Positions 53,135-56,715 of a DNA stretch of 64,000 nucleotides are shown one piece after another. The stretch spans positions 82,137 to 146,136 of IMG/VR virus record IMGVR_UViG_3300020424_000002; one strand, given 5' to 3'. Origin of the DNA: a virus. The position numbers and the translations under genes are program-made. Position 1 is the stretch's first letter, and each line of letters opens with the position of its first letter. Below the pieces are notes generated by a model, which saw only the letters and a list, made by a program, of their open reading frames with translations, had not been told where the DNA came from and ran no database searches.

Positions 53135-53716
53135 TTATGATGAGGATGCTATTTCAAATGTAGTAAATTGGAAAGATGCACTGCATGTTACATAGGTAAT
53201 TCCACCAGCAACAGTAGTATCCATTGTAATCTCACTTAACGATGTAGGAAATGCACCTTGTATTCTAACATATCTGTTAGGATTATTTGCAGCTGTTGTA
53301 ATTACAATAGTCATATCTGAGTATAATGCATCATAATCACCAGAACCATCATATGGTTGTTCTGCTCTTCGATTTGCACCTACTAGACTTCTAAATTTTT
53401 CTGGGTCTGTAGAACTAGTAATTTGAGACATCCATGTATATAACTCAGTCCAGTTTTCCATGTTTTCATCGACAATAAAATTAACAGTTAATTCACCAAG
53501 GTTTATTTTATCGCCTGGAACTATAACATTTCTACCTAGGTTAGTAGGTTGTTGAATTTCTGCAACACTTACAGATGGAACATTAACACCAGTTGCAAAG
53601 TATTTTGTATTAGGTAATTTCTTAACTAATAATTCGAATTGAGTTGGTGCAAGATAGGATAGATTATCTGGAAGATTACCCGCCCATGTTGCAGTTGAGA
53701 TTTGTCTTGTAGTCAT
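53135..53716 (-). CDS. tail-tube-like structural protein (possible baseplate tube initiator)
   Basis: A 193-residue protein related in pattern to the tube protein gp19: a start like FELLVKKLPNTKYFATGVNV, a centre LGELTVNFIVDENMENWTEL and a C-terminal IQGAFPTSLSEITMD followed by SFQFTTFEI. The true gp19 is at 61148-61645, so this is a paralogue, perhaps the gp54-like initiator or another tube-fold baseplate protein. A late box five bases before the ATG predicts a leaderless message. Confidence 0.65.
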   Translation of the reverse strand: MTTRQISTATWAGNLPDNLSYLAPTQFELLVKKLPNTKYFATGVNVPSVSVAEIQQPTNLGRNVIVPGDKINLGELTVNFIVDENMENWTELYTWMSQITSSTDPEKFRSLVGANRRAEQPYDGSGDYDALYSDMTIVITTAANNPNRYVRIQGAFPTSLSEITMDTTVAGGITYVTCSASFQFTTFEIASSS

Positions 53717-53771: not shown

Positions 53772-53888
53772 TTAAGCAGCAACTTTGCCAGTAATTCCAC
53801 GATAAGTAACTTCTTTACCTTTCTTGGATTTTCTTGCTTTGCTTTTAAGAGTTTTTGCATCGTATTTGATACCTCTGTAGCAATACAT
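53772..53888 (-). CDS. 38-residue DUF4278-like microprotein
   Basis: The frame begins MYCYRGIKYDAKTLKSKARK and ends GITGKVAA, with GGAGG seven bases before the ATG. The Y-x-YRG-x-x-Y start is the DUF4278 pattern known from cyanobacteria and their phages. It has its own terminator (53732-53760) and a long leader of about 200 bases from the late box at 54099-54106, so it forms a single-gene late unit. The function is not known. Confidence 0.65.
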   Translation of the reverse strand: MYCYRGIKYDAKTLKSKARKSKKGKEVTYRGITGKVAA

Positions 53889-54098
53889 AATAGCCTCCAG
53901 TTTTCATTTCGATTTCGTACATACAACTTTCGTTGCACACCCTTCTCCATGCGTTCCTTCGGTAAGATGTCGGTCTCTGTTCCCACTTGGGTACTTAGCT
54001 TGCCTTTCTTCTATTGCAGAAAAAAGAGGTTTTCTTGTCTTCCTACTTCCGACTCCAAGAATGGAGTTGAACGAGTTGATACTTTTCAGTATCATTAA

Positions 54099-54106
54099 TA
54101 TTTATA
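54099..54106 (-). promoter_or_regulatory. late promoter box TATAAATA for the microprotein unit
   Basis: A perfect box facing left, about 30 bases from the divergent plus-strand promoter at 54140-54169. The leader (53889-54095) contains a weak 63-codon frame without a ribosome site; I treat it as untranslated. Confidence 0.6.
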
Positions 54107-54139
54107 GCTTAAAAAAGTCCAACTTTTTGGCGATTTTTG

Positions 54140-54169
54140 TTGACAGGCAGGTGCATTTTTTTGTATAAT
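54140..54169 (+). promoter_or_regulatory. early-type promoter of the large RNA (plus strand)
   Basis: TTGACA, GGCAGGTGCATTTTTTTG (18), TATAAT. The spacer is a close match to the GGTACATTTTTT spacer of the minus-strand early promoters. Confidence 0.85.
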
Positions 54170-54175
54170 ACCCTT

Positions 54176-55343
54176 GTAATTGAGAATTACCGAGTGCTTG
54201 AGGATTCGACCTCGTAAAAAACCAGTGAAAATCCTACTTGATTAAGGTTTAATCCAGATGATACTTGTGTTGCAAGGTTCTTAATCATTAGAAACAGTTC
54301 ACGAAGTTCAAAAGTCTTGAGAGGTCACAGGTTCGAATCCTGTCTGTCGCCGAGGGCACAGTGGAGAAGTGGTGTGTATCTCTTGAAATGTCAATTGGAT
54401 GTTGCTATTGCAGTTAAACATTTGAGACAGAGCATAAGACTTATCGTAAATCGTAGAGTCATGTGAGTAAGCATGTGGTGAGAATGTCCCTAGTGACAAT
54501 CAATATAACCAGTAACTACTTCACTACCTTGATTCAACCATTACACAACTTTGTCCATCCTCTAGTTAAAGTGTGAGGATTGTAAGATATCTTACCACTA
54601 AGGGACATTGTAAAAGAGAACGAGTACCATATGGATGCTAGATTCGTTGACCTTGTTAATCTGACAAGGTAGAGTTTACGCACATTGAAAGTTCGGTGGG
54701 TTGATACTGTATCAATACTGGGAGACATAACAAACGAAGGTATTTAACGCGAAAAAAGGGGACTAGACATGGTTAACTAACGAGGGCATCTGGTGGTAAA
54801 AAAATCAGATTTTATTGAATTCCTGTTGGGGTCAGTGATGACTTTCCTAACTTTAGTAGTGGTGATATATGAGTACAAGATAGAAGCGTGTTGACTGTTT
54901 GTTGTAAAAACAAGAGATGAGACTCAAGCGTGCAACAGACAGATAGTCGGAGACCTATACAGAATCCGAGCGTAGAAAGAACTCTTGAGTCAGAATATGA
55001 TGGTAAGTGTATGGATGTGAGTTGAAAACGATTGGTGTCTGGTACTTGTTAGATTCTTGGAGAATAAGAGGGTATAGTCGTCTAACAGTTAGTAGGGAAT
55101 ACGAAATCTCGCTCAAGGTGGTGATGAAACAGTGGTTGCAAACACCGAGTAGTCATTAACGAACTTCACCTTTTTTTAAATGAAATAGTTTCGAGGGGTC
55201 GTTCCCTTGCCTGAAAGATGGAGACAAGAACTTATTTACGATAAGTGAGTTAAAATTATTTTATTAGAGACTTGATTCGACAAGAATGAAGATTGATTGA
55301 TGCAGACAAGTCTCGAAACCCACCTTTATGGTGGGTTTTTTTT
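54176..55343 (+). ncRNA. giant structured RNA of about 1.17 kb
   Basis: A plus-strand transcription unit, opposite to all neighbouring genes, with a consensus promoter, a terminator and no plus-strand frame of 60 codons. Many complementary segments support folding. Examples are 54483-54495 with 54596-54609 (13 bp, one bulge), 54557-54562/54575-54580, 54650-54656/54664-54670, 54701-54706/54710-54715, 54895-54904/54933-54942, 55048-55053/55081-55086, 55230-55235/55241-55246 and 55267-55274/55307-55314. Three stems close TTCGA-type loops. A tRNA 3'-half-like segment lies at 54323-54343. It resembles GOLLD or ROOL phage RNAs in scale and setting only; homology was not tested. Confidence 0.85.
55317..55343 (+). 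terminator. terminator of the large RNA
   Basis: AACCCACC-TTTAT-GGTGGGTT followed by a run of T on the plus strand. Confidence 0.9.
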
Positions 55344-55348
55344 AGCAT

Positions 55349-55377
55349 AAAAAAAGGGACTCCGAAGAGTCCCTTTT
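55349..55377 (-). terminator. terminator of the capsid gene
   Basis: Minus-strand AAAAGGGACTC-TTCG-GAGTCCCTTTT with a T run. It faces the terminator of the plus-strand RNA, so the two convergent units are insulated. Confidence 0.88.
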
Positions 55378-55404: not shown

Positions 55405-56715
55405 TTATAGAATATTTTCTATTTCGATTTTTCTGTAGTAGAAGTTTGAACCAGCAGACGCTAAACCATCACTTGGAGCACTACCTACGAAAGGATTAGA
55501 AATCATTCCATATCTAGTTTTGAATCCAATTTTTGGTTGGAAGCTGTTCTCACCAACTGCACGAACCATTTGTAATGGAACATATGGGCAGTAGAAGACA
55601 CCAGCGTCGTATGGGTTTGAACCTCTGTAACCAACAGTCATGTAACCTTCGTTGTTGTGACCACTTACTGGGTCAAGAGTGTAATATGGGTCGATGTACA
55701 CTTTGTACTTACCATTTAGAACACCAACAAAAGTGTTACCAGCATCATCAACATTTAACTCAGTGTTAAGTGCTGGTGCATAGTCTAATACACCCGCCAT
55801 TGATAATGCAGAAGCTACATCAGATGAACAAAGGATAAAGTTACCTTTACCTCTTCTTGATTCTCTTGCGATTACATTAGCATCTCTTTCAACTTGGAAG
55901 AGTAAACCTTTGAACTTCTCAACTGACCATCTACCAGATGAATCAACATCTAAGTCGAATCTACCAGCATTAGCAACACCAGTTTGAGCACCATTTTTTG
56001 CTTGGATGTTAACAGTTCTTACAACTTCTCTGTTAATCTCTGCAAGTATTTCAGCAGATAAGATGTTTGCAAGTTCTGTTTCTGCATCTAAACCATGAAT
56101 TGCTTTAAGGTCTTGTGCAAGTTCTATTGTGTATTCAGCTTTAAGAGCTCTTGACTTAGCAGTAACAGTTGCTTTCTCGATTGTGAAAGCCATTGATGCA
56201 AATGGGTTACTCGCAGAGTCACCTTTTGCTTCTGCAGCTGCTGTAGTCATACCAGTACCAGTTGCATAAGTAGCTGCATCCCCAAATGGGTCTGTACCTG
56301 CTTGTGTTCCTGCTCCAGCAAAGTCTGAATCAGCTTCGTCAAACAATGCTTCAGTCATAGCTAATCTTGAAGTATTGTCGTTATATCTAGCCTTCATACA
56401 GAATACTAATCCTGTTGGGCCAGTCATTGGTTGCACACCACAGATGTCGTATGCAATTAGGTTTGGAAGAGACCTACGAACTAAAGAAATTAGAATAGGA
56501 TTCCAGTTGTCAACACCTGTTCCACCAACAGCACCACCGGCGTTGTTGATAGGTGCATCCTCTGAAAGGATTCCATTCTCTTCATTAAAGGCTCTTTCTT
56601 GGTTCTCTAGAACCACAGAAGTTACAGCTTTTTTGTAAGGGTCACTGATTTCTGGTAAATCTGGATGACTCAATACTGGCTGCCACTTCTCTTGTAAGTT
56701 TTCTGACATAAACAT
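55405..56715 (-). CDS. 23: major capsid protein gp23
   Basis: A 436-residue capsid protein (T4 gp23 521). It has ENLQEKWQPVLSHPDLPEIS at the start, LIAYDICGVQPMTGPTGLVF, TVTAKSRALKAEYTIELAQD and FQPKIGFKTRYGMISNPF, all hallmarks of the family. In T4 the first 65 residues are removed by gp21; here the AFNEENG/ILSEDAP region near 38-50 would be the equivalent. A GGGG-type site precedes the ATG; an ATG two codons later is possible. Confidence 0.95.
   Translation of the reverse strand: MFMSENLQEKWQPVLSHPDLPEISDPYKKAVTSVVLENQERAFNEENGILSEDAPINNAGGAVGGTGVDNWNPILISLVRRSLPNLIAYDICGVQPMTGPTGLVFCMKARYNDNTSRLAMTEALFDEADSDFAGAGTQAGTDPFGDAATYATGTGMTTAAAEAKGDSASNPFASMAFTIEKATVTAKSRALKAEYTIELAQDLKAIHGLDAETELANILSAEILAEINREVVRTVNIQAKNGAQTGVANAGRFDLDVDSSGRWSVEKFKGLLFQVERDANVIARESRRGKGNFILCSSDVASALSMAGVLDYAPALNTELNVDDAGNTFVGVLNGKYKVYIDPYYTLDPVSGHNNEGYMTVGYRGSNPYDAGVFYCPYVPLQMVRAVGENSFQPKIGFKTRYGMISNPFVGSAPSDGLASAGSNFYYRKIEIENIL

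Follow-up and report, generated by a model that had tools for sequence, protein, structure and literature searches.

The gap between the capsid gene gp23 and a gp19-like tail tube gene of a T4-like phage encodes a large phage RNA of a class not catalogued before, as judged against Rfam 15 and the open-access literature. This RNA is very probably structured and trans-acting, and copies of it probably associate with one another: in its mode of action it seems to resemble the ornate RNAs and, by the tests made, it is not GOLLD, ROOL or OLE. The analyzed stretch of 64,000 nucleotides (hereafter the window) comes from an IMG/VR virus record of 146,136 bases, and its sequence places the source among T4-like phages close to Melnitz and the pelagimyophages, with a gp23 that is 68% identical to that of Melnitz and 62-64% identical to those of Mosig and HTVC008M.

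On the minus strand, gp20, gp21, gp22 and gp23 (55405-56715) are followed by the gap, then by the tail tube gene (53135-53716) and the genes for UvsY and a helicase. The same gap holds a glutamine riboswitch (53948-54075, minus strand; Rfam match of 46 bits), upstream of which a T4-type late promoter, TATAAATA (54099-54106, minus strand), lies divergent from the sigma70 promoter of the RNA. A 72-aa GTG frame overlaps the riboswitch, and a 38-codon ORF with a GGAGG site, MYCYRGIKYDAKTLKSKARKSKKGKEVTYRGITGKVAA (53772-53888, minus strand), comes after it; the latter resembles DUF4278 at just below the Pfam cut-off and is likely the actual microprotein gene. At the other end of the gap, the gp23 terminator (55352-55377, minus strand) separates the gp23 transcript from the RNA.

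The RNA itself lies on the plus strand. A promoter scan placed a sigma70-type promoter, TTGACA-18-TATAAT, at 54140-54169, matching 12/12 consensus positions, together with an extended motif, AGGTGCATTTTTTTGTATAATAC (54149-54171), that is found ~8 times in the genome. Copies of the pattern AGGTNCATTTTTTNNTATAATAC numbered 5 in the window vs. 0.03 expected, and 8 across the whole genome vs. 1 for a control pattern. The predicted transcript would start ~7 nt past the -10 box and run through the T-run of the terminator, spanning 54176-55343, i.e., ~1.17 kb (~1,170 nt). Its intrinsic terminator, CCCACC-TTTAT-GGTGGG-TTTTTTTT (55319-55343), can be read directly from the sequence and was not listed by a pattern scan for terminators; most homologues have comparable ends. 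Within the transcript, alignment of homologues delineates a conserved core of ~985 nt (54185-55170), beyond which (from ~55170) the sequence is variable among homologues. Two length-variable segments, 54780-54818 and 55170-55310, are candidate flexible linkers. Promoters of this sigma70 kind are regarded as early ones in the related phage Melnitz (PMC9004378). By its promoter class, the new RNA is probably early-transcribed and sigma70-driven, and abundant expression would fit the same class.

The RNA is not protein-coding. No plus-strand ORF >50 aa was found in 54176-55175, the longest ORFs over the homologue set reach 67 aa (plus strand) and 103 aa (minus strand), and most indels among homologues, counted over related rows, have a length that is not a multiple of three. 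An initial annotation of this DNA had described a consensus promoter, a strong terminator at the end of the RNA, the lack of a long plus-strand frame and neighboring protein genes all on the opposite strand, and each of these features was recovered here, the neighbors being gp19, gp23, gp22, gp21 and gp20.

Homologues of the RNA, 65-97% identical, are carried by ~29 further IMG/VR contigs of T4-like phages. Sister phages were found via a scan for the tail tube gene (in L094-L099, the RNA is present at 88-95% identity) and further homologues via pattern scans with conserved stretches, until the set stopped growing in the last relaxed scan; the 13 loci which that scan had added were all unrelated by profile search. 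Outside this set, the most conserved 22-mer (one exact 22-mer searched) had no match in GTDB species genomes, blastn with three family members against annotated phages returned terminator matches only, and neither the corresponding site of Melnitz, HTVC008M and Mosig nor any part of 36 further virus records held a convincing homologue. Across the family, the RNA is conserved as a full-length unit even at ~35% sequence divergence. The homologue sequences form two main clades with block recombination, so that independent changes are fewer than alignment rows. Three homologues (L094, L169 and L172) share a diverged block at window positions 54580-54712, including a CCATGG hairpin, and are closer to other rows outside it, which indicates recombination inside the RNA gene. 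Of the two length-variable segments, one is a hairpin limited to one clade and the other, a 3' region, is missing in L097 and L099.

The fold of the RNA was evaluated comparatively. Because a fold computed from the single sequence is only slightly more stable than those of shuffled versions (minimum free energy z = -1.6 with the terminator and -0.8 without), folding energy alone proves nothing. In contrast, the RIBOSUM-scored consensus fold of a 20-sequence alignment (A2) comprises 256 pairs in 43 helices, with 91.6% of cells paired and an energy 7.8 sd below that of column-shuffled alignments (z = -7.8). The fold displays 60 pairs changed on both sides (vs. 40.7 in shuffles and 12-19 when partners were slid), 233 cells with both-sided changes (vs. 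77 in shuffles and ≤54 when slid) and a covariation score of 0.185 (vs. 0.114 in shuffles, matched in 0/500 of them, and ≤0.061 when slid), where the slide contrast is inflated by a structure derived from the same sequences it is tested on and the shuffle contrast by sequence kinship, both-sided changes being the safer measure. Since G-U cells far outnumber A-C cells (748 vs. 78), the plus strand is the functional strand. The initial annotation had listed at least eight complementary helices and had called for comparative folding of homologues, with conserved codons in place of covarying pairs as the outcome that would speak against an RNA; the alignment instead yielded strongly covarying pairs, and most indels break the reading frame.

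Several elements of this fold stand out. At the 5' end, a hairpin at 54191-54214 (helix 1, four both-sided pairs) has a CGAG/CTCG stem that covaries to CAAG/CTTG and CATG/CATG. The structure is closed by a long-range helix between 54303-54309 and 55161-55167 (helix 7, paired in 100% of cells), and a second long-range helix joins 54315-54325 to 55106-55118 (helix 8, 98.4% paired) and is probably the 13-bp long-range pair seen at the outset, now recovered in 98% of cells. A 12-bp helix between 54361-54373 and 54515-54527 (helix 11, 99.6% paired) is near-invariant, with no pair changed on both sides, and hence carries no covariation evidence. Looking for stacks that do not nest within this fold revealed two pseudoknots: one between a hairpin loop at 54201-54206 (AGGATT) and 54230-54235 (AATCCT), 98.2% paired with 3/6 pairs both-sided, and a long-range pseudoknot or loop contact between 54955-54960 (CTATAC) and 55072-55077 (GTATAG), 99.1% paired with 3/6 pairs both-sided, each in one sequence only. 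Together, the two are 98.6% paired, with 6/12 pairs changed on both sides and a covariation score of 0.306 vs. 0.153 in shuffles. An elaborate covarying fold with pseudoknots and no ORF is what is looked for in the large ornate phage RNAs as a functional kind, and the locus has all of these; we regard it as almost certain that the product is a structured noncoding RNA.

One module of the fold resembles part of a tRNA. A T-arm-like hairpin, ACAGG-TTCGAAT-CCTGT (54327-54343, plus strand; helix 9), varies in its loop only as TTCGA(A/G/T)T across the family, with a first pair that covaries between A-U and G-C. Abutting it is a second, covarying hairpin that is acceptor-stem-like with a loop cap (54344-54361, plus strand; helix 10), and the stem of which reads CTGTcGCC/GGCACAG in the window, CACAAC/GTTGTG in L154 and CATAAC/GTTATG in L182. 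Neither Rfam nor ARAGORN matched a tRNA or tmRNA model to the whole module; relaxed ARAGORN calls on the RNA were inconsistent between homologues, and a D-arm-like reading of GGAGAAGTGGT, beside the acceptor-like hairpin, is at best tentative, as it conflicts with the near-invariant helix 11, which for its part carries no covariation evidence. From its sequence, the T-arm-like hairpin can be read as a T-loop structural module or a partial tRNA mimic, and it hints at contact with tRNA-binding factors.

Two hairpin loops are self-complementary. The first, K1 (54582-54595, plus strand), is a proposed homotypic kissing loop formed by the palindromic hairpin GTAAGATATCTTAC with core GATATC at 54586-54591. 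A perfect palindrome of 10-16 nt occupies this site in 25/26 of the homologues spanning it, taking the forms GTAAGATATCTTAC, ATTACCATGGTAAT, CATCCTAGGATG, TATCCTAGGATA, CACCATGGTG, ATTCACCATGGTGAAT and ATCTAGATATCTAGAT with core variants GATATC, CCATGG and CCTAGG; palindromes were tabulated per homologue, as MAFFT misaligned the isolated 16-mers. L155 is the lone exception, having lost the palindrome. Across the 20 rows, K1 is the sole alignment site where almost every row has a palindrome of ≥8 nt and several palindrome types occur, and on a tree built without the K1 columns its core changed at least five times, four of these from palindrome to palindrome. The second, K2, is a 3' hairpin (55130-55147, plus strand; helices 42-43) proposed as a second homotypic loop, with core TTGCAA at 55136-55141. 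Its loop is palindromic in 18/18 rows reaching it (TTGCAA in 14, TTCGAA in four), with at least three changes on the tree, all variation being limited to GC/CG.

Retroviral dimerization hairpins, e.g., HIV-1 DIS, pair two copies of one RNA through a 6-nt palindromic loop; the likeness lies in the palindromic loop, the biology is different and no relation is implied. Because adjacent bases of one loop cannot pair within the chain, palindromes kept through change point to pairing between copies. The same argument was used by Kretsch et al. for OLE L9.3 (GGCC/GAUC/AGCU) and GOLLD L21a (GC/CG), both of which are symmetric intermolecular kissing loops by cryo-EM (PMC12286853). GOLLD half-shells are joined by two self-interacting loops of this kind. 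Self-complementary loops kept through change, another feature of the large ornate phage RNAs, were found in all homologues reaching these loops except for K1 in L155, and the pattern of change makes it likely that copies of the RNA self-associate. The K2 hexamer could be a tertiary motif instead of an intermolecular contact, and the K1 palindrome may have a role at the DNA level.

The promoter, RNA and terminator form a free-standing, mobile cassette (approximately 54107-55346, plus strand) found in several genomic contexts. The cassette is missing from an empty site in the sister phage L093, where gp19 shares 99% and gp23 98% identity with the genes of the window and the gap measures 478 bases vs. 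~1,690: promoter, RNA and terminator are lacking, and the riboswitch and gp23 terminator are retained. Elsewhere, the RNA adjoins gp2/gp4/gp48-type genes (genes typed in L174; ORF sizes point to the same layout in L152, L155, L158, L163, L165, L166 and L172), a DnaB-type helicase (L182 and L188), a phosphatase-like gene by our own reading of the protein (L159 and L162), or yet another genomic context (L183). Since it has no fixed neighbor gene, the RNA most likely acts in trans, and as many close relatives lack it, it is dispensable. In L098, the RNA is 95% identical to that of the window and the adjacent gp23 only 65%, which indicates that recombination has taken place at the capsid gene next to the cassette. 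In two other sister phages (L111 and L114), the same gap contains a different insert with an opposite-strand ORF of ~85 codons, and the gp19-gp23 gap is possibly an insertion hotspot.

Searches with the whole Rfam 15 library of the RNA and six homologue loci gave no match, including to GOLLD, ROOL, OLE and tmRNA, nor did the RNA match models of group I or II introns or other catalogued ribozymes; sub-threshold matches at the RNA (e.g., EF3314_EF3315) cover terminators only. GOLLD and ROOL were absent at E-values up to 10 for the window RNA and up to 1 for the six homologue loci, and their covariance models (RF02032 and RF03087) found nothing at the RNA in 14 records, a scan in which no positive control was matched for ROOL. 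The proposal of a giant phage RNA in the initial annotation, which had named a covariance-model search for GOLLD, ROOL and OLE as one check, was therefore upheld as to a new class, given the covariation, palindromic loops and lack of any Rfam match, and not as to descent from GOLLD or ROOL. In kind, the new RNA resembles GOLLD as a phage-encoded large ornate RNA with self-complementary loops, which in GOLLD are symmetric kissing loops, one switching an internal GC/CG dinucleotide in evolution as K2 does (PMC12286853). It differs in size (833 nt for solved GOLLD vs. a ~985-nt core and ~1.17-kb transcript) and in that scanned copies lack an adjacent tRNA gene, except for L159. There, the RNA is preceded, ~1.6 kb upstream and on its own strand, by a tRNA-Ala gene (L159:7871-7946, minus strand), which recalls the tRNA-island neighborhood of GOLLD and ROOL. 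ROOL, also a large phage RNA, forms a homo-octameric cage using kissing loops (PMC12286853, PMC12515178), whereas the new RNA is about twice the length of the 574-position ROOL model. OLE likewise has a palindrome that changes sequence yet stays palindromic, a symmetric intermolecular kissing loop (PMC12286853), but is a dimer mainly of extremophilic bacteria, not phages. Phage ICP1 makes an abundant noncoding transcript of ~800 nt, similarly a large orphan RNA encoded by a lytic phage in a gap lacking ORFs (PMC7567579); the blastn searches with three family members, which matched no phage record beyond terminators, set the two apart.

Taken together, we consider it fairly likely that the locus represents a new large ornate RNA family, i.e., a trans-acting cassette expressed early and self-associating into a homo-oligomer, perhaps a cage. 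The RNA folds up so that helices bridging ~860 nt close the structure, which includes at least two covarying pseudoknots, and it would have its role early in infection. Copies would pair through the palindromic K1 loop (GAUAUC/CCAUGG/CCUAGG), with K2 (UUGCAA/UUCGAA) probably providing a second contact between copies, and the K1 and K2 contacts would yield a homo-oligomer, which may be a closed cage like those of GOLLD and ROOL; in principle, a closed dihedral particle could arise from two homotypic contacts per chain. That the RNA does form a closed cage is a tentative proposal. More speculative still is a further natural class of phage RNA forming a closed, RNA-only cage, one that shares no descent with GOLLD and ROOL and moves as a cassette among ocean T4-like phages; its tRNA-elbow-like arms could recruit tRNA-binding host factors or cargo early in infection.

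An unlikely but serious alternative is a structured noncoding RNA that acts as a monomer or RNP (a decoy, scaffold or host-factor regulator, e.g., via the T-arm), the palindromes being stems close to the loop. The T-arm-like hairpin is indeed nearly invariant and keeps the T-loop rule, every K1 palindrome can form a hairpin with four loop nucleotides, and L155 does without a loop palindrome. However, a hairpin needs no self-complementary loop, and across five or more different stem backgrounds the inner loop is always AUAU, CAUG or CUAG; by our arithmetic, ~1.7% of random hexamers of the same base composition would be palindromic. Descent from a diverged GOLLD or ROOL would account for the size, phage location, ornate fold, symmetric loops and the GC/CG switch shared with GOLLD L21a, but is very improbable given the unmatched covariance models.

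We give hardly any credence to a degenerate or unusual permuted tmRNA. Melnitz does carry one beside a glutamine riboswitch, and the order of T-arm, 3' acceptor strand, loop and 5' acceptor strand appears similar; however, the Rfam models tmRNA_permuted and alpha_tmRNA detect Melnitz ssrA as a positive control and not the new RNA, ARAGORN at normal stringency reports no tmRNA in it, the loop has no CCA, homologues differ in the length of the capped stem, and the Melnitz tmRNA and the new RNA share no sequence similarity. Just as remote is control of gp23 or gp19 by the RNA as an antisense or cis-regulatory transcript: the RNA lies opposite late genes in the window, yet overlaps neither gp23 nor gp19, the RNA and gp23 terminators separate the transcripts, and homologues adjoin quite different genes, some of them codirectional. 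Finally, a chance structure in a spacer with no functional RNA, for which the modest single-sequence energy (z of only -1.6) could be invoked, is contradicted by the covariation and by full-length conservation at ~35% divergence, and we give it virtually no weight.

Few large ornate RNAs have so far been described from bacteria and phages. For the RNA described here, otherwise near-identical sister phages missing it offer natural comparisons, and the comparative evidence already pinpoints which bases to mutate. If this reading is true, an independent ~1-kb family in marine T4-like phages, its loops still self-complementary after sequence change, would indicate repeated origins of homo-oligomeric RNA assemblies in phages.
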